From the IMG/VR virus record IMGVR_UViG_3300002184_000006, positions 1-23,765 of that record: a stretch of 23,765 nucleotides of DNA, one strand, 5' to 3'. Shown here piece after piece: positions 9,390 through 22,620 of the stretch; position 1 is the first letter of the stretch; each line of letters opens with the position of its first letter. The notes beneath the pieces were generated by a model that was not told the DNA's origin, did not search any database, and saw only the letters and a list, made by a program, of their open reading frames with translations. The position numbers and the translations under genes are program-made. This DNA is from a virus.

Positions 9390-9899
9390 ATGAATGCGAT
9401 GTTAAAACCGATTGAAATCGTTAATGTTGAAAATGGTGAACCCATGACAACCACACTGCAAATCGCGCTAGGCTTGCGTATCCAACATGCCACAGTTATT
9501 AAATTGGTTAGGACTTATATGCCAGATTTTCAGGAATTTGGAAGGGTCAGATTTAAAATCCAATCCTTTGAGACAACTGGTGGTGTTCAAGAAAGAAAAT
9601 ACGTCCCTCTAAATGAACAACAAGCCACCTTCTTAATGACACTCATGCGAAATAGTCCGAGAGTAATTGAGTTTAAGAAGGCTTTAGTAAAGGCATTCTT
9701 TGAAACGCGGGAGTTCATCCGCTCCCAAGATCAGAGTTATAACAATATTCACAACAAATTATCACTTCAACTTGATCTGGCGAAATCAGATGCAAGCCTT
9801 GCAGGTAGTGTTTTAGGAAGCTATCGCAAGAAACGAGATTTACTAATGACTGCAATTACTGAGGTTGAACGACTCATGCAGCCATGTCTATTTGAATAA
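9390..9899 (+). CDS. Rha-family phage regulatory protein
   Basis: 169 residues. The first ~110 residues match the Rha pattern: MTTTLQIALGLRIQHATVIK (winged-helix-like), LVRTYMPDFQEFGRVRFKIQ, then YVPLNEQQATFLMTLMRNSP and FKKALVKAFFETREFI. Rha proteins regulate phage genes and some act as antirepressors or block growth in certain hosts. The rest is a coiled helix (LSLQLDLAKSDASLAGSVLG). AAGGAG precedes ATG 9390. It is bracketed by terminators 7 and 8 inside the tail operon, so it is an inserted unit, not a structural gene. Confidence 0.82.
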   Translation: MNAMLKPIEIVNVENGEPMTTTLQIALGLRIQHATVIKLVRTYMPDFQEFGRVRFKIQSFETTGGVQERKYVPLNEQQATFLMTLMRNSPRVIEFKKALVKAFFETREFIRSQDQSYNNIHNKLSLQLDLAKSDASLAGSVLGSYRKKRDLLMTAITEVERLMQPCLFE

Positions 9900-11785: not shown

Positions 11786-11838
11786 TTGCCATCACTAAGG
11801 ATGAAGACTTATGACAAGTTTAGCATTAAGTTTTAACG
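11746..11838 (-). ncRNA. Candidate Sar-like antisense RNA
   Basis: Predicted leftward transcript of roughly 93 bases from the promoter at 11845-11873 to the terminator at 11745-11783. It would be fully complementary to the ribosome site (AAGGA 11797-11801) and start codon (11811) of the antirepressor. In P22 immI, Sar RNA occupies the same place and lowers Ant synthesis. The position and signals are seen; the RNA itself is inferred. Confidence 0.45.
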
Positions 11839-12623
11839 ATGTAAATTTTAAGCCAGTTCAGCAGAGTGGTCAGATTTGGCTGACAGCAGTTGAATTGGCC
11901 AAGGCCCTAGGGTATGCAAAATCAGATGCTGTAACTCAGGTTTATGAGCGAAATAAAGATGAGTTCACACCTTCAATGACAACGACCCTCAAATTGAGTG
12001 TCGTTAGAAAAACAGGTAAAGTTGAAATGGATCATCGTATCTTTTCTCTTCGCGGTGCTCACTTAATCGCAATGTTTTCTAAAACTGTAATCGCAAAACA
12101 ATTCCGCAAATGGGTGTTGGATGTTTTGGATCGTGAAGTTGTTACCAAGCAGCTTGAAGGTCGCCAATCTATCTCACCAGAACAGCAAGCATTACTTCAT
12201 GAGATTGTGGCGCGTCGCTCTCAAGGTAAACGGAAAATTTTCGCTGAAATGTGGGCACGTCACAACCGACACTTCAAAATCCCACGCTATGCAGAACTTT
12301 TGGAGATACATTTTCCAGAAGCGATTCATTATCTGGAAACAATGGATCTAAAAGCAAAGGTAGAGAAAGAAGAAGTTAAAGCTTTGCCATACCCAGCCGA
12401 AGTGGTTCAAGTGGCTCAGCAGATCAATCATGAATTTAATGGTGGTCAATATGATTCATGGTTCGTAAATGCACGTGATGGCATATTATCCGTAATGCCT
12501 TTACCTCATGGCTACTACCCATTCAATGTGAAAGAGTTCACTAGACATTTTGATGGGGTGCTCAATACCTTATATGGTGGTGATGTGCTCCAAATGGGAA
12601 GATATATGCTGCGAAAGGGCTAA
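11811..12623 (+). CDS. Bro-N domain antirepressor (Ant-like)
   Basis: 270 residues. Residues ~8-108 are a Bro-N domain: GQIWLTAVELAKALGYAKSD, VYERNKDEFTPSMTT, HRIFSLRGAHLIAMFSKTVI, AKQFRKWVLDVLDREV. Residues ~123-175 (SPEQQALLHEIVARRSQG, AEMWARHNRHFKIPRYAELL) resemble the ORF6C-type C-terminal domain paired with Bro-N in phage antirepressors. Such proteins inactivate the prophage repressor when expressed, and are normally held off by Arc/Mnt-type control, exactly the neighbours found upstream. The last ~75 residues are unrecognised. Followed by terminator 9, closing the unit. Confidence 0.88.
   Translation: MTSLALSFNDVNFKPVQQSGQIWLTAVELAKALGYAKSDAVTQVYERNKDEFTPSMTTTLKLSVVRKTGKVEMDHRIFSLRGAHLIAMFSKTVIAKQFRKWVLDVLDREVVTKQLEGRQSISPEQQALLHEIVARRSQGKRKIFAEMWARHNRHFKIPRYAELLEIHFPEAIHYLETMDLKAKVEKEEVKALPYPAEVVQVAQQINHEFNGGQYDSWFVNARDGILSVMPLPHGYYPFNVKEFTRHFDGVLNTLYGGDVLQMGRYMLRKG
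11845..11873 (-). promoter_or_regulatory. Candidate promoter for the antisense RNA
   Basis: Minus strand CTGACC (11868-11873, four of six), 17-base spacer, TAAAAT (11845-11850, five of six). It lies inside the start of the antirepressor gene. Confidence 0.4.
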
Positions 12624-12630
12624 ATTAAAG

Positions 12631-12655
12631 AACCACTCTTCGGAGTGGTTTTTTT
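12631..12655 (+). terminator. Intrinsic terminator 9 (TTCG loop)
   Basis: AACCACTC, loop TTCG, GAGTGGTT and a T tract. It ends the immI-like unit. Confidence 0.85.
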
Positions 12656-12698
12656 GTGCCGGAATTAGTATCTTGTCTCTATTAAGGAGGGGTGGGAT

Positions 12699-13346
12699 AT
12701 GGCATTAATTAAATGTAAGGAATGCGGACACCAGATTAGCAAAAATGCTGAAACGTGTCCTAATTGTGGGGCAAAAAATAAAAAAAATGTTCCAACATGG
12801 CTTGCTGTGTTAGTGCTTATAGTAGTAGGCATTGCAATGATTCAGTGTATTAATCAAAATCATAACAAAAGGCTTGCTACTGAATCTGAGGCAGAAGATA
12901 GTCCAGCAGCGCTGAATAGCAACTGGATATATAAAGAAGAAACAGATGAGATGCGAGGGAGCAAGAAATATTCAGCCTATGCGGTAAGTAGCAACAAGGT
13001 TGATTTTGAGTTTCCGCATCAAGGTGGAGCATCTATGGCTATTAATCTTAGAAAAGATAAAACTGGAACAGATGTGATGCTAATTATGGATAAAGGACAA
13101 TTTTTTTGTGGTATTCAAGGGTGTGAGGTTGCGTTCAAGTTCGATGACGGTCCTGTTCAATCAATAACTATGATTGACCCAGATAACTTAAATACAAAAG
13201 TACTTTTTGTCATGCATGACCGCACTGAAGACAAAATTATTTCACAGTTAAAAAATAGCAAAACCTTAATGATTGAAGCGCCCTTCTTTCAAGACGGAAA
13301 GAGACAATTTAAGTTTGATGTAACTGGTCTCAATTGGGCTCATTAG
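12699..13346 (+). CDS. Zinc-ribbon, membrane-anchored accessory protein
   Basis: 215 residues. Zinc ribbon at 6-23 (CKECG and CPNCG, ten residues between the pairs), one membrane helix at 32-51 (VPTWLAVLVLIVVGIAMIQC), then a ~160-residue outer domain with a possible disulfide (C137, C142 in GQFFCGIQGCEV) and strands such as LMIEAPFFQDGKRQFKFDV. The ribbon should face the cytoplasm and the domain the periplasm. The outer domain resembles a family I recall from bacterial cell-envelope proteins, unnamed here. A strong AAGGAGG precedes ATG 12699. Flanked by terminators 9 and 10: a moron or lysogenic-conversion candidate. Confidence 0.75.
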   Translation: MALIKCKECGHQISKNAETCPNCGAKNKKNVPTWLAVLVLIVVGIAMIQCINQNHNKRLATESEAEDSPAALNSNWIYKEETDEMRGSKKYSAYAVSSNKVDFEFPHQGGASMAINLRKDKTGTDVMLIMDKGQFFCGIQGCEVAFKFDDGPVQSITMIDPDNLNTKVLFVMHDRTEDKIISQLKNSKTLMIEAPFFQDGKRQFKFDVTGLNWAH

Positions 13347-13401: not shown

Positions 13402-15945
13402 ATGGCCAGCAAGTTAGGTGTTTTAACATTAGATTTGGTCGCTAAGATCGGTGGCTATATATCTCCAATTAAAGAGGCAGAAAAGCAAACTCAAACAAGT
13501 TTTGCGAAGATGAGAGACTCAGTAAGTAAGTATGGCCCAATTGTGGCGGGAATGGCCGCAACAGCAGGTGGTGCCTTGCTTGCAATGGCAACTCAATATA
13601 CTCAGGCTGCAATTGAAGTAGAGCGATTTGCCTTTTTGTCAAATGCTTCTACCACTGAATTTCAAAAGATGGCAGTAGGCGCTGAGACAGTAGGAATTAG
13701 TGCTGAAAAGCTCTCAGACCAGATGAAAGACTTCAACGAGAAGCTGGGGGAGTTCATAACTCTTGGATCGGGCGGGGCATTAGACTTTTTTGAACAGATT
13801 GCTATTCAGACTGAAGGTGGAGCAGAAGGGGCGCGAAAATTAGCTCTGGAAATGCAACGTCTTTCGGGCCCACAAGCGCTACAACTTTACGTTGATAAGA
13901 TGGAAGAAGCTGGAGTTACCCAGCAACAAATGTCCTTCTATTTGGAGTCAATGGCGAGTGATACCACAGCCCTAATCCCACTCCTTCGGAATGGTGGCGA
14001 AGGCTTCAAACTTTGGGCTGATGCTGCTGAACGTGCAGGCGCTGTCATGGATGATGAAGCAATACGCTCAGCTAAGGAGATGAAAGCTCAGATTCATTTG
14101 CTTGATCTGCAAATGACAGGTTTTAAAAACGAGCTTCTCCAAGGGACTATACCAGCTCTTGTTGATATAGCTGATGCATTTAATAGTGCTGATGTTGAAG
14201 GGCAGGGTCTTGCAAGTACCGGTCAGGTTATGGGCAATGTCCTTCGAGGGGTGGCTGCAATTGCTATGGGGGTGTATGCATCCATAAATGCTGTAGCAGT
14301 CTCTATTGCAGGGCTTGCAGCAACAGCCACTCAGTCAAGAGATGTGATAACTGGCGGGCAAGGTTGGTGGAAAACCTTATTTCAACCCGGTTGGAAAACA
14401 ATTGGATTGGCTGCTGGTGCAGTAGCAACGCATGCTGGAGAAGATCTTCAGACAGGATTTGAGCAAACATCTAAGACAATTAATGGTCTTTTTGATGATG
14501 CTGTTAGCAATGCCACAGCTAAAATGGGCCAACTGCAAACAGCTATGGATGGGGCTGCAAAAGGCTCTCAAGATTGGGTTGATAAACAAAACAAAGCCGA
14601 AAAAGCCACAAAGAAAAATAACAAGGAATTGAATGATCAAAAAAGATTGTTAGAGGAACAAAGGCAGCTTCGTGAATCTTTAATTTATTCCTTCGCTGAT
14701 AATGAATATAAGCTTCAGCTAGATTATGAAAAACAAATTGCAGAGGTTAGAAAGGCTGGATTTCCTGCTGATCAGGAAAAACGATTCCTAAATGCCTCAA
14801 AAAATCGCTATCAAACTGAGCGTGATTTATTGCAAGCGCAAATGGCTTTTGATATTTCTGAGCACCGCTTAAATGAAGAGGAAAAGCTTAACTTTTCTCT
14901 AGCACTACAGCAGAAAGAAATCGCAGCTCGAACTGACATTGCTGATAATTTGAAAGGCTTGTACTACAAGGCTGCTCGAGAACAGCATGATCAGGAAATG
15001 GCATGGCTTCGTCTCGAGCAAGCTCAGCGGCTTCAAGATGCGCAATCTTATTATTTGACAGGCATGCAAAACATGACTGCCAGATATGAGTTTGAACGTG
15101 AGCAGATTCGACTTAATAAAGAGCTACTTGAGGAGGATAAGGTTGCTCTGATTGGCGCATCATATAGATCTCAGGATCGTGAGAATGATGATGCCCGCTA
15201 CGCAGCATGGGGCAACTATCGCGATGCAATTGGTATTGATATGTCAGCCGAGGATGACCGCTCTCGGCGTGAAGAGGCAATCACAGAAGCACTTGAGTGG
15301 GAGTTGATTACTAGGGAAGAATATCAACAGCGGATGCTCGAATCTGAGCAAAACTATTATATTGCTAAGGCTCAGCTTGGACTGGACTCTGCACAACAAA
15401 CCTTAGGCACATGGACTAGCGTGTTTGGCAGTTTACTGGGAGAACAATCTTCTGCATATGCTGCAATGTTTGCTCTAGAGAAAGGTTTTGCTGTGGCTAA
15501 AGCACTGATGGCAGCACCTGAAGCTTACTCCAAAGCTTATAACGCAGTTGTAGGTACTCCATACATAGGACCATATATTGCACCTGTTATGGGTGGGGCC
15601 GCAGCAGCAGCTCAGGTAGCGCAGGCGGCTATAATTAAAAGCGTTAATTTTTCCGGTCAAGCGCATGATGGTCTTGAGTATGTCCCGCGTGAAGGCACTT
15701 ATCTTTTAGACAAAGGCGAACGAGTAGTTACATCAAATACCTCAGCTAAACTCGATAAAACACTTGATCGAGTGCAGCAGGCGCAAAGTTCTAATCCAGC
15801 TAACTCGCCAAATGTTAATCTCAATCCAAATTTCGTGATTGTGGATGAGCGTGAAAAGCTCGGTGATTATCTTTATAGCCCTGATGGAAAGAAAGCCTTC
15901 GTGAAGTTCTTTAAGCAGAACCGGCGAGAATTAGGATTGGCATAA
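13402..15945 (+). CDS. Tape measure protein
   Basis: 847 residues from ATG 13402 (GAGGTG just upstream; an in-frame TTG at 13390 has no better site). Sets tail length and enters the cell during DNA injection. Seen: N-terminal MASKLGVLTLDLVAKIGGYI typical of siphophage tape measures, hydrophobic segments near residues 48-67 and 275-300, long charged helices between ~400 and 650, and a C-terminal Gly/Ala-rich hydrophobic stretch followed by YVPREGTYLLDKGERVV. At about 0.15 nm per residue the tail would be near 127 nm. The final 39 residues recur in the next gene. Confidence 0.93.
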   Translation: MASKLGVLTLDLVAKIGGYISPIKEAEKQTQTSFAKMRDSVSKYGPIVAGMAATAGGALLAMATQYTQAAIEVERFAFLSNASTTEFQKMAVGAETVGISAEKLSDQMKDFNEKLGEFITLGSGGALDFFEQIAIQTEGGAEGARKLALEMQRLSGPQALQLYVDKMEEAGVTQQQMSFYLESMASDTTALIPLLRNGGEGFKLWADAAERAGAVMDDEAIRSAKEMKAQIHLLDLQMTGFKNELLQGTIPALVDIADAFNSADVEGQGLASTGQVMGNVLRGVAAIAMGVYASINAVAVSIAGLAATATQSRDVITGGQGWWKTLFQPGWKTIGLAAGAVATHAGEDLQTGFEQTSKTINGLFDDAVSNATAKMGQLQTAMDGAAKGSQDWVDKQNKAEKATKKNNKELNDQKRLLEEQRQLRESLIYSFADNEYKLQLDYEKQIAEVRKAGFPADQEKRFLNASKNRYQTERDLLQAQMAFDISEHRLNEEEKLNFSLALQQKEIAARTDIADNLKGLYYKAAREQHDQEMAWLRLEQAQRLQDAQSYYLTGMQNMTARYEFEREQIRLNKELLEEDKVALIGASYRSQDRENDDARYAAWGNYRDAIGIDMSAEDDRSRREEAITEALEWELITREEYQQRMLESEQNYYIAKAQLGLDSAQQTLGTWTSVFGSLLGEQSSAYAAMFALEKGFAVAKALMAAPEAYSKAYNAVVGTPYIGPYIAPVMGGAAAAAQVAQAAIIKSVNFSGQAHDGLEYVPREGTYLLDKGERVVTSNTSAKLDKTLDRVQQAQSSNPANSPNVNLNPNFVIVDEREKLGDYLYSPDGKKAFVKFFKQNRRELGLA

Positions 15946-15970
15946 GCTCACTTCGGTGGGCTTTATTTTT
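15944..15970 (+). terminator. Intrinsic terminator 11 (TTCG loop)
   Basis: AAGCTCAC, loop TTCG, GTGGGCTT (one T-G pair), then TATTTTTATT. The stem overlaps the tape measure stop codon. Confidence 0.7.
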
Positions 15971-15990
15971 ATTAATTTGAGGAATTTAAA

Positions 15991-16176
15991 ATGAAAACAT
16001 TAGTTGTTCTTGGTGTAGTTATTGCTTTTGGGCTTTTCCTTAAGAAGGTGGAAAAAGTCAAAGAGCCGAAGTTTATTTTGATTGATGATCGAAAATCTTT
16101 AGGCGGGTATCTGTTTGGCGATGATGCTAAAGAGGCTTTTAAGAAACACCTTAAGATTGCTATATCAAATTTATAG
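15991..16176 (+). CDS. Membrane-anchored paralogue of the tape measure C-terminus, 61 residues
   Basis: GAGGA lies seven bases before ATG 15991. Residues 3-17 (TLVVLGVVIAFGLFL) are a membrane helix, then a Lys-rich linker. Residues 26-55 align without gaps to tape measure residues 809-838 with 14 identities of 30, including PxF, D-x-R, LGxYL, D-x-K and AF. The remaining sequence shows no other domain. It therefore looks like a membrane-tethered copy of the piece of the tape measure that leads injection. A role in blocking other phages, or in tail-tip assembly, is inference. Bracketed by terminators 11 and 12. Confidence 0.75.
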   Translation: MKTLVVLGVVIAFGLFLKKVEKVKEPKFILIDDRKSLGGYLFGDDAKEAFKKHLKIAISNL

Positions 16177-16209
16177 TTCACTTAGATTTTCCAAGCCTAA
16201 AAAAGCAAA

Positions 16210-16239
16210 ACCCCAGTGTTAGCGCACCGGGGTCTTTTT
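16210..16239 (+). terminator. Intrinsic terminator 12
   Basis: ACCCCAGTG, loop TTAGCG, CACCGGGGT (one A-C mismatch), C then five T. It ends the 15991 gene. Confidence 0.75.
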
Positions 16240-16280
16240 AATTCCACTCAACCGAGAAGTAAAGAGGAAAAACATCTTGT

Positions 16281-16430
16281 ATGGACTATATTAAACCAAT
16301 GGTGGAGCTTATGAAAGTGTCTATTGAAAAATATGGTTTATGGCAAACAATACTGGCATTTCTGATCCTGTTTTCCATACCAATACTACTCTGGAGACTT
16401 CCAGAAATTATCGCAGCTATTAAAGCTTGA
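16281..16430 (+). CDS. Small single-helix membrane protein, 49 residues
   Basis: ATG 16281 with AGAGGA upstream at a long spacing. The head MDYIKPMVELMKVSIEKYGL is amphipathic, residues ~21-38 (WQTILAFLILFSIPILLW) are a membrane helix, and the tail PEIIAAIKA is short. No family. It is the second small membrane protein wedged between tape measure and distal tail genes, each with its own terminator, which suggests accessory rather than structural function. Confidence 0.65.
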   Translation: MDYIKPMVELMKVSIEKYGLWQTILAFLILFSIPILLWRLPEIIAAIKA

Positions 16431-16458
16431 AACCGACCCAATAAGAGGTCGGTTTTTT
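16431..16458 (+). terminator. Intrinsic terminator 13
   Basis: AACCGACC, loop of eight (CAATAAGA), GGTCGGTT, then T tract. It begins at the stop codon of the 16281 gene. Confidence 0.85.
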
Positions 16459-16481
16459 AATGCCCAAATTTTGAGGACAAA

Positions 16482-17693
16482 ATGAAAATACAAACATCAT
16501 ATGGCGAGGTGCATGTATTAACAAATTGCCCTCTACTCGATTCAACTGAAAGCCTGGAATGGATGACTGAAGTACATGAGTCATTTGACGGTTCTGAGAT
16601 CCGCTATCCGCTTCGCGATGCACCACGACAAATCCTGAATTTCAAGTACACGGAAATGCGTAAAGCTATGGGTGATCTGTTTCATATGCTCTATGCCAAT
16701 CTGCGTAAACAGTGGGGGATTCCGTTGCGTCAGGTGAAGAGAAGCATTCCAGATGTTACCGATGATGACTACATCATTCTCGATGCAGCAGACACCATAG
16801 CCGACCTTCGAGTCGGTTTTGCTTTTATTGAGAGCAAGGAAGGTGGCCAAGTGGTCGAGATTGTTAGCCGTGGCCGCTACATCATTGTTCAGGAAGAAAT
16901 CCGGGACCCGGAAACGGATGAGGTGATTCAAGAATTGATCACTGAGTACCAGGATGGCTTCCGACTGGCTGAAAACATCACAGCAAATAATGCCGTGATC
17001 ATGCCGCTACGGATCTGCATCATTGACGGTGATGCGTCAATTAATACTGGCGGTTTCTGGTCCAATACTTCAGTGGTTTTTCGGGTGCTGGCAGAGGACT
17101 TGCCAGAGCATGAAGGTGATGTGCCAGAACAGTTTAAGGGCCAAGACATTCACTTCAAGCCGTTGCTACTTGATGGTGACTCGCTCGAAATGACATTGAC
17201 ACAGCATCAAAACATTGTTGATGGAGCCATGGGTGGTTTTCAATCTTACACACATCATGCAAGGCCTAAGTACTTCAAGCCTTTTACCTCACTGTTAAAA
17301 AGCTGGTCTGAATTTAACGAATATCGCCGGTTCTTGTTTCGGCGTTCTGGGCGTTACCGTGCGTTCTGGATACCGCTTTATGAGCAGCACCTTAGTATTT
17401 TGAATGCCGAGAATATCACTGAAACGTTATATACCGATACCAAATACACCGTCGAAGCAGGGCGTAAGCATATTGCAGTTAAGCGTAAGAATGGCACCTG
17501 GTCAGCGCATGAGATTACCAGCTGGTCCGGTGGCTCATTCACGATTTCACCGGCAATAAATGCACATCGAGACGACATTAAAACTATCTGTTATTTAGGA
17601 CTTCATCGCCTGGATGCAGACCGGATCGAGTTTCAGTTTTTAGGTGCCGGTAAATCAAGAATTACTGTCCCAATTGTGGAGATTGATAGCTAA
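16482..17693 (+). CDS. Distal tail / minor tail protein candidate
   Basis: 403 residues, preceded by GAGGACAA. Position right after the tape measure and before a gpL-like protein matches lambda gpM or a distal tail protein, the ring linking tube to tip. Seen: FDGSEIRYPLRDAPRQILNF (likely N-terminal beta domain), RKQWGIPLRQVKRS, DRIEFQFLGAGKSRITVPIV near the end. The middle (SYTHHARPKYFKPFTSLLKS, FLFRRSGRYRAFWIPLYEQH) resembles the domain in minor tail proteins of lambdoid phages. Overlaps the next gene by TAATG. Confidence 0.75.
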   Translation: MKIQTSYGEVHVLTNCPLLDSTESLEWMTEVHESFDGSEIRYPLRDAPRQILNFKYTEMRKAMGDLFHMLYANLRKQWGIPLRQVKRSIPDVTDDDYIILDAADTIADLRVGFAFIESKEGGQVVEIVSRGRYIIVQEEIRDPETDEVIQELITEYQDGFRLAENITANNAVIMPLRICIIDGDASINTGGFWSNTSVVFRVLAEDLPEHEGDVPEQFKGQDIHFKPLLLDGDSLEMTLTQHQNIVDGAMGGFQSYTHHARPKYFKPFTSLLKSWSEFNEYRRFLFRRSGRYRAFWIPLYEQHLSILNAENITETLYTDTKYTVEAGRKHIAVKRKNGTWSAHEITSWSGGSFTISPAINAHRDDIKTICYLGLHRLDADRIEFQFLGAGKSRITVPIVEIDS

Positions 17694-21600: not shown

Positions 21601-21889
21601 ACCTACTTCACTCCTGATTCCAAACAAACCCCATACCCTGAAGTTATGGTCAACTCGGGATGGATATGACTCTTATCAGAAATTTGAACACTCTTTTTTT
21701 GTAGAAGCGGCAAGTTTAATTCTTACAGCATCTACAGATGGATCGAAAGTTTCAGGAAATACAGTGCCAGCAGCAAGCATCTCAATTGATGTAGATGCAT
21801 CTTTGAAAGCAAATATGCGGTCTGACGGCTCAAGCATTAGTGGTAAAGCGCAGGCTGGATCAACAATTACAATTGAGGTAGAAGAATGA
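18629..21889 (+). CDS. Tail tip hub protein (gpI/gpJ-like)
   Basis: 1086 residues. An unusual start: two hydrophobic segments at 1-17 and 33-57 (MLVILLLLALFVPALCF and IAPLLLGALIAGAISLVVGV) and a Lys-rich turn, like small lambda gpI, fused to a large hub. From about 73 the hub pattern follows: DGTIADEGISFYDLAGSP, ITDIWDKDAQ, TGYRYYAKFAAFIGNRIE. The middle has RIYDEGLGVSWAIDEKSCID and LRIMKINLGNGTDN-style beta-rich repeats. From ~1028 there are two Ig-like half repeats (DGSKVSGN, DGSSISGKAQAGSTITIEV). Forms the trimeric host-facing hub. ATGA overlap with next gene. Confidence 0.85.
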   Translation: MLVILLLLALFVPALCFRSSVKIPNDVQMQKAIAPLLLGALIAGAISLVVGVYTFLQMRKMQKKNQPKPNQLDGTIADEGISFYDLAGSPHVHTNITDIWDKDAQAIKKKSGGFLGMGKTSQVTGYRYYAKFAAFIGNRIEKFLAINFDNRGWILHDPLKHPDNLLPIEKPSLYGEDEGGVSGNIDIHFGYPDQEPNAEYQKYFPLVSGYPYQSYLVFRSLTGGAPSLGQGLSPAGFYLGNSGYMKEMLLWVKRIYVKNNGDVQWHKPKAGIPDFYYQGGGEYPPKLDIFASYTGFISNQPEKITEQHLEQKSWNSIWSISGMVSTNWPINYPYDVKQDWMIAYSSGEPIFIELIINIMNNSPNTKANIGLYESGDIVVISSESWDEDTPENYGKGQFQRIRAMLPAKPSGKATLTAMGKLEAGLIAWHKGWLTWVDPVKGKEWLERLDAFDINPIHKIREILTDDTAMGKPESDINDINFIKAADRIYDEGLGVSWAIDEKSCIDAIEELCYHIEAGVRVNRQTGLYEMVLFRDNWFSEEEIHDIAENKIKNLSLEIMNSDDIVNQLNVTYYDRERIKNSAFSVYENGSILTIGHVNAESVDFPYFMNMRNAEIVANWKLKQFSTPAWSGSFTTGWREARKWNRYDLIRLPWSKKWNGTILVRIMKINLGNGTDNTVTIDFEEIVPYSGEMNTSIVADESLNQGTLPPQPCQYEPFELPYYLILKALGQRRVDDELAYESNFGLVGVVAEKPQSNSIYAIMMTHDETEGEEWTRAATIDYSPTADLDQTISKTATSLTVKNRKNLTDLPSGTLIKCGSDWIGMPGEFMVLQSIDAYTGIITVKRGALDTMPQLWGPNVKLYFCGSDIPLDETEYVLGEKVLVSALTTTPSGVLEQKGSIPVEIQARAIRPYPPANVKLNGVYFPETHLVTRDLTITWADRNRLQQTGGELLGFYDAGVTVEPGVTYSYELSSGNSILEAKTDLVGNLAVIPTSLLIPNKPHTLKLWSTRDGYDSYQKFEHSFFVEAASLILTASTDGSKVSGNTVPAASISIDVDASLKANMRSDGSSISGKAQAGSTITIEVEE

Positions 21890-22620
21890 CAACTTACACA
21901 ACAGTAGCAGATTCAAACGGGGACTTTATAGTCCCTTTTTCAACTGAATATTCAAGTGGTGAAAAGATTACAGTGACTGCTGAAAAAGATAGTGCGACAA
22001 AATCAATTGAGATCTATGCACCGAGCAAAGTCATAGGCAGTGGAACAATACAATTTACGGGAAGTCTTAATGATTTCCCAGGGAATATTGGTGGAGTAAT
22101 TATTAGTGGTATTAGTGGAATAATAGGAGATTATGCATTTCAACCGGAAAATACACAGCAGGGAGGATTTCAGCGAAAAGCAACGTCACTCCAGATTTTC
22201 GATGGAGTGACGAAAATCGGAGCTAGCGCGTTCAAGGGCTGGAGTGCTGTAAAAGCGCTATCACTCCCGAGCACGCTTTTGTTCATAGGTTCTAGCGCAT
22301 TCTCGGGACTGAGTGCGCTAACAAGTCTTATTATTCCCAACAGCGTAGACACAATTGATTCATTTGCTTTTGAATACTGTACATCATTAACAACCTTAAC
22401 ATTGGGTAGTGGGGTTCGCTGGGTTGGTGGATTAATAATTAGCAACAGTACAAATTTAAGAAATATTTACAGTCTAGCAACGGTTCCTCCAAACATCATA
22501 AGCAGCACATTCGGTGGCTTACATTCATCTGCTACTATTTACGTCCCAGCAGACTCTGTAGCAGCATACCGTTCAGCTCCGAACTGGTCTACTTTTGCAT
22601 CGCGTATTCAAGCTATCTAA
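21886..22620 (+). CDS. Leucine-rich-repeat tail protein, receptor-binding candidate
   Basis: 244 residues. GAGG (21875-21879) lies seven bases before ATG 21886, inside the hub gene end. Residues 1-47 (TTYTTVADSNGDFIVPFSTE, then GEKITVTAEKDSATKSIEI) are the second half of an Ig-like fold whose first half ends the hub. Residues ~100-185 hold four 23-residue repeats, starting at Leu102, Leu125, Leu148 and Leu171, of the BspA / LRR_5 type (IGASAFKGWSAVKALSLP; IGSSAFSGLSALTSLIIP). The C-terminus (IYVPADSVAAYRSAPNWSTF) is the usual BspA cap. Likely at the tail tip and contacts the host surface. Confidence 0.82.
   Translation: MTTYTTVADSNGDFIVPFSTEYSSGEKITVTAEKDSATKSIEIYAPSKVIGSGTIQFTGSLNDFPGNIGGVIISGISGIIGDYAFQPENTQQGGFQRKATSLQIFDGVTKIGASAFKGWSAVKALSLPSTLLFIGSSAFSGLSALTSLIIPNSVDTIDSFAFEYCTSLTTLTLGSGVRWVGGLIISNSTNLRNIYSLATVPPNIISSTFGGLHSSATIYVPADSVAAYRSAPNWSTFASRIQAI

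Follow-up and report, generated by a model that had tools for sequence, protein, structure and literature searches.

A membrane-anchored copy of the phage tape-measure tip, encoded beside the tape-measure gene: a candidate exclusion protein

We analysed a 23,765-nt stretch of viral DNA, the window (IMG/VR record IMGVR_UViG_3300002184_000006, positions 1 to 23,765), in which the gene for the tape-measure protein (TMP) is followed by a gene for a 61-residue protein, P0001, that joins a hydrophobic helix to a copy of the C-terminal tip of the TMP. The reading that we favour, tentatively and on comparative grounds, is that the small gene is a moron that would block TMP-dependent steps of related phages by mimicry, most likely DNA entry at the inner membrane.

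The tape-measure tip and its small copy

The TMP gene (13402..15945, plus strand, as are the two small genes and the distal-tail gene described below) encodes 847 residues starting with MASKLG and matches the tail length tape measure families of PHROGs (phrog_1506, E 1.7e-130; phrog_2854, E 7.8e-117). The ORF for the small protein (15991..16176) is preceded by a Shine-Dalgarno sequence, GAGG, at 15979-15982, and since its homologues differ far more at synonymous than at nonsynonymous sites, the ORF is by both signs a real gene; the same ratio of pS to pN rules out a non-coding frame. The product begins with MK, a 15-residue hydrophobic core (residues 3-17, TLVVLGVVIAFGLFL, 15997..16041) and KK, and AlphaFold models two helices and nothing more, at residues 2-21 and 44-60, with a modest mean pLDDT of 63. 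Residues 26-55 (16066..16155) align gap-free with TMP residues 809-838 (15826..15915), with 14 of the 30 positions identical and an ungapped BLOSUM62 score of 86, while 300 shuffles of the soluble part of the small protein, each compared with the whole TMP, gave a mean of 28 (sd 3.6) and a maximum of 40. A search of the entire record with the small protein found exactly two places, the gene itself (E 7.6e-37) and the TMP end (E 5.9e-7), and the profile of the small family (A3) matched that of the TMP ends (A2) at E 3.9e-18 with a probability of 99%. The shuffles and the homologues together rule out a chance similarity to the TMP. The coordinates and counts of an earlier note, made from the letters of this DNA, were thus right for both ORFs and for the alignment, and its statement that the copy is fused to a membrane helix agrees with the hydrophobic core and the modelled helix 2-21. 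P0001 had no significant match in Pfam, PHROGs or PADLOC, and the small proteins of two homologous loci, L116 and L117, had no PHROG. A lipoprotein was rejected, since members do not consistently have a cysteine where the helix ends.

The copied segment could be placed in a known structure. When the Protein Data Bank was searched with the profile of TMP ends, the single matching entry was 8VJH, the tape measure of phage Chi, at residues 1391-1422 of 1431 (E 2e-7); the small family's own best match was this same stretch, albeit a weak one (E 0.96). In siphophage structures the C-terminal helix is the resolved part of the TMP and lies in the tail tip, as in Sf11 (residues 749-780 of 780; PMC12724387), and that source reports likewise for T5, lambda, 80alpha and Chi. 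It lies in the tip lumen of T1 (PMC11945409), of lambda (gpH 818-842; PMC10721106) and of JBD30, where it anchors the TMP as assembly starts and is proposed to be the first part extruded (PMC11445458). The match to the Chi tip, together with these structures, points to the small protein being a tip segment on a membrane anchor, a point in support of the interpretation in the earlier note. Despite the aligned residues, the settings differ: in Chi and other TMPs the segment ends a protein of 800-1400 residues inside the tail, whereas in the small protein it stands alone on a membrane helix. The gene that borders the slot downstream (16482..17693, 403 aa) encodes a homologue of the distal tail protein, by a profile match to 8VJH chain B, 'Distal tail protein' (E 4.7e-8). 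The window resembles Acinetobacter phages, and all 24 matches to the DNA of this region in the phage collection came from such phages. Further along the tail cluster, a 1086-residue ORF is followed by a BspA-type leucine-rich-repeat protein (21886-22620; LRR_5, E 3.8e-20), possibly a host-binding part.

In all members of the family only Met-Lys precedes the helix and a cluster of net charge +3 to +5 lies just behind it, so that the positive-inside rule suggests, weakly, an N-out/C-in protein with the copy facing the cytoplasm. A copy on this side could still act on DNA entry: SNIPE, which cuts DNA during injection from a place in the inner membrane, has contact with the TMP there (PMC13190303).

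Relatives, the accessory slot and gene conversion

Scans of viral contigs took as queries the small protein and its alignment as well as the C-terminal region and the ends of the TMPs; bacterial genomes were covered in one scan. Seven distinct members of a first type were found (in the window and in L001, L007, L014, L024, L086 and L116), of which the L007 version recurs in the Acinetobacter sp. SFB genome (L084). All type 1 proteins share MKTL..., a hydrophobic core of 15 residues, KK and, ahead of the TMP-like segment, a linker that is short and basic, and each of the seven genes lies straight 3' of the TMP gene and 5' of the distal-tail gene. The alignment first seen in the window holds in homologues; its failure there would, by the earlier note, have refuted the idea. 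A second type, of 79 residues, comes from five near-identical contigs (L117-L120 and L124) and has its parts in the same order with a longer linker, which contains GFSEGGY, like the glycine-rich stretch ahead of the TMP end (e.g. GYADGGMV). In hhalign the C-terminus of type 2 aligns with the profile of TMP ends (93%, E 2.7e-7), and type 2 matches type 1 at E 1.5e-7. When the C-terminus of each long ORF was compared with the other ORFs of its own locus, convincing copies were confined to the small family. Annotated phage and plasmid collections held no copies of the small protein, their matches being TMP C-termini themselves (Cronobacter JC01, Chi-like Salmonella phages and Providencia Redjac), and weak matches in the order lay mostly inside longer frames or contained stops. 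The sample is small, with seven type 1 members, five near-identical type 2 contigs and one carrier in 176 Acinetobacter genomes.

Judged by where it occurs, the small gene is accessory, a moron placed in a slot of variable content. It is inserted between two genes, those for the TMP and the distal tail protein, that are adjacent in several relatives and in YSD1, and most relatives with the same TMP end do not have it. The DNA of L004 is 94% identical to the window through the TMP gene and 91% identical beyond, and it omits window 15998-16469 (homology ends at 15997 and resumes at 16470), which indicates that a tail cluster of that kind manages without both small genes, the second being that of a 49-residue accessory membrane protein in the same slot (16281..16430; phrog_35629 'membrane protein', moron category, E 1e-25). 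The locus L086 has a divergent, B-type TMP end (8/32 identical), and its small protein keeps the usual form. The slot holds the phrog_35629 protein in the window, L130 and L133, a 56-residue protein with a hydrophobic segment in L010, and TPR-like proteins in L023, L024 and L086. Given L004, L086 and the variable slot, the role of an essential assembly partner would be unexpected, whereas an exclusion gene may behave in this manner; the patchy distribution fits exclusion better than an essential part in assembly.

The small gene sits in the late tail operon between two terminator-like hairpins found by scanning. One comes right after the TMP gene (15944..15963, plus strand) and consists of AAGCTCAC-TTCG-GTGGGCTT and a T run; the other lies between the two small genes (16207..16236) and likewise has a T run on the plus strand. 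Almost every relative, carrier or non-carrier of the small gene, has a hairpin behind its TMP stop; base changes keep the stem, and in L115-L126 the stem is a different one. This hairpin separates the TMP gene from the tail-tip genes and may set their relative expression. Promoter matches beside the small gene were at the level expected by chance.

Along its full length the small gene differs between members far more at synonymous than at nonsynonymous sites, as L007 and L014 illustrate (pS 0.75, pN 0.17, with saturation limiting such estimates of rate). Most pairs show constraint in both halves, from which we take purifying selection to act on both halves of the gene. In L007, 22 of 31 residues (71%) are common to the TMP end and the copy, but just 6 of the 22 corresponding codons match; pS is 1.0 and pN 0.14, every synonymous site being altered. 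With synonymous sites saturated and so many residues kept, the L007 copy is, on this reckoning, an old duplication held at the level of the protein. A recent simple duplication is ruled out by the same saturation for the window, L007, L014 and L024.

A recent tract was seen only in L116. Its copy is identical to its own TMP at 30 of 35 residues, that TMP being of a different subtype (ESLSDYLFSPDGTKAF), and L116 5025-5095 and 5247-5317, in the 3' end of the TMP gene and in the small gene, form an exact tract of 71 nt with diverged DNA around it. From its pattern this tract is a gene conversion between a structural gene and an accessory copy. The TMP was probably the donor, since in L115, which lacks the small gene, the TMP end is nearly identical (118/123 nt). 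For most other copies the own TMP is no nearer in sequence than the TMPs of other loci; A-type ends are almost invariant, so that own and foreign TMPs are indistinguishable there. Paired variation of the two copies, which the earlier note had put forward as a check, is thus clear in L116 only.

Proposed function and its rivals

The mechanism that we propose would run as follows. The product would be a small inner-membrane protein with a copy of the TMP C-terminal tip as its soluble part. In the TMP this segment forms a three-helix plug in the tail tip and would be the first part out at ejection, and the tethered copy could join the C-terminal helical bundle of the incoming TMP or, alternatively, occupy the inner-membrane site at which that bundle must engage. 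In either case DNA entry would be stopped, and the outcome would be superinfection exclusion. We infer the insertion of the small protein in the membrane, the cytoplasmic side of the copy, its binding to the TMP or to a partner of the TMP, and the exclusion phenotype. Interference by mimicry is suggested by a homology far above chance, a kept design that is always found by the TMP gene, selection, the conversion in L116, the match of the copied segment to the Chi tail-tip TMP and the accessory status. It accords as well with the TMP being a known target of exclusion and defence proteins (Ltp, HK97 gp15 and SNIPE) and with the slot holding other membrane, TPR and 2TM-TIR-like proteins in relatives. 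The reading is weakened in that no promoter stood above chance, which makes expression from a silent prophage an assumption, that late expression of a cytoplasmic copy could hinder tail assembly of the phage itself, and that paired variation is clear in L116 only. It also counts against mimicry that, to our knowledge, no known exclusion protein acts by copying the TMP. With more reserve, we can envision an entire exclusion family of this kind, in which the tethered tip of a phage's own TMP would poison the TMP-dependent DNA entry or tail assembly of relatives, and conversion from the TMP gene would keep the decoy matched to the tape measures in circulation.

Tail assembly could itself be the step that is hit: a cytoplasmic copy would bind the tip complex of a rival (distal tail, hub) or poison its TMP trimers, so that no tails form, as a mimic-based analogue of Tab or Tai. 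The predicted cytoplasmic side of the copy suits this, as does the anchoring of the siphophage TMP C-terminus in a preassembled baseplate when tail assembly starts (PMC11445458), and there is precedent in Tab, which acts through the TMP (PMC10884400), and in Tai, which blocks tail formation (PMC11364771). However, a membrane anchor would be unnecessary for such an action, the assembly of the phage itself would be hit too unless the timing differed, and no gene for an anti-factor was seen, so that we think this route unlikely. A tethered placeholder could also serve its own phage late in infection, by aiding tip assembly, protecting the tip lumen or tuning the use of the TMP. The gene does lie in the tail operon, where no separate promoter was recognised for it, gene conversion in L116 keeps it matched to its own TMP, and its linkage to the TMP C-terminus survives a swap of the TMP body between the window and L001; but L004, with near-identical tail genes, and most relatives do without it, and L086 pairs it with a different TMP C-terminus (8/32). 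Such help to the phage is rather unlikely, and the aid to tip assembly that the earlier note had offered as its second option is weakened by these two loci in particular.

The same note had implied a copy on the periplasmic face of the inner membrane, where a decoy would occupy the host protein through which related phages bring in their DNA. Host partners of TMP-dependent injection are indeed known at the inner membrane, namely ManYZ for lambda (PMC13190303), and the logic of position is that of the entry block proposed above; however, the flanking charges predict N-out/C-in and hence a cytoplasmic copy, and no partner of this kind is known in Acinetobacter, which makes a periplasmic decoy quite improbable. 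Finally, the rarity and patchiness of the gene (1/176 Acinetobacter genomes) and the match of the window-type copy to the TMP at only 13 of 29 residues might be expected of a duplication relic with no function between phages, or of a small host-modifying membrane protein descended from the TMP end. Against this, both halves are under selection, the design is constant across saturated synonymous divergence, and a second lineage, type 2, has the same design; we consider it very improbable.

As the earlier note had held, no described system of this form was found in a search of the open full-text literature. The nearest in design is HK97 gp15, an exclusion protein whose target, according to a citing paper (PMC10883804), has been traced to the region of the tail tube or the TMP. 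It has 62 residues and an N-terminal membrane helix and adjoins the TMP gene in the tail operon, much like P0001 with its 61 residues, 15-residue hydrophobic core and place straight after the TMP gene, except that gp15 lies upstream of the TMP gene and P0001 downstream. The two are not homologous (score 28; shuffles, mean 22 and maximum 32), and gp15 was rejected as another TMP mimic (best score 35; shuffles, mean 28 and maximum 44). Ltp of Streptococcus phage TP-J34 is likewise a membrane-attached prophage protein that targets the TMP, apparently in its C-terminal region (PMC3952083), but it is a lipoprotein outside a Gram-positive cell and binds the TMP via repeat domains, with no copy. Tab/anti-Tab of JBD26 and Tai share with the proposed function a prophage- or island-encoded interference with the tail of a rival (PMC10884400, PMC11364771), but they are not membrane proteins that copy the TMP, and Tab comes with an antagonist gene as its partner and a promoter of its own. 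SNIPE is an inner-membrane protein that cuts DNA during injection and meets the TMP there (PMC13190303); it has a DUF4041 domain and a nuclease and no TMP copy. TMP-directed exclusion is therefore already known (HK97 gp15, Ltp, Tab, SNIPE), the described proteins being binders or enzymes. If interference by mimicry is true, a self-derived TMP tip on a membrane anchor would make a dominant-negative injection machine, and the roughly 30 residues that the copy isolates would be a small handle on the passage of siphophage DNA through the inner membrane. Natural variants, namely A- and B-type TMP ends and carriers and non-carriers that are one cassette apart, provide ready-made tests.

Signs of exchange among neighbouring modules

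The bodies of the TMPs of the window and L001 are unrelated upstream of window 15669 and L001 5679, while the last ~90 TMP residues and all downstream genes are ~93% identical, which indicates that this C-terminal part of the TMP moves together with the small gene and the tip genes. Comparing L127-L135 with the window and L004, we found that TMP C-termini are of two types, A (NPNFVIVDEREKLGDYL) and B (NNLRVIMVKDENEAKDWL), although the tail genes further downstream are closely related; the TMP ends look swapped, which could be an escape from the decoy.

Other contents of the slot were recorded along the way. In L086 (8295-9532) a TPR-like protein of 272 residues is followed by one of 140 (phrog_5176, unknown function), and the two may be a defence or toxin-antitoxin pair not yet characterised; in L016 (4954-5744) a 124-residue protein with a PADLOC match to 2TM-TIR (E 1.2e-20) is followed by a 139-residue protein with one N-terminal hydrophobic segment. 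Other genes break into the head-tail cluster of the window as well (at 9390-9896, 11811-12620 and 12699-13343), their products being a Rha-like regulator, a Bro-N/ORF6C protein and a zinc-ribbon protein that has a membrane segment; T-run hairpins lie at some of the borders. Window 12631-12677, a hairpin-containing stretch of 47 nt, has 43-46 of its 47 bases in common with L001, L005, L010, L019 and L132, and the coding DNA beside it mostly differs among those loci; it is possibly a boundary sequence that guides the exchange of modules.
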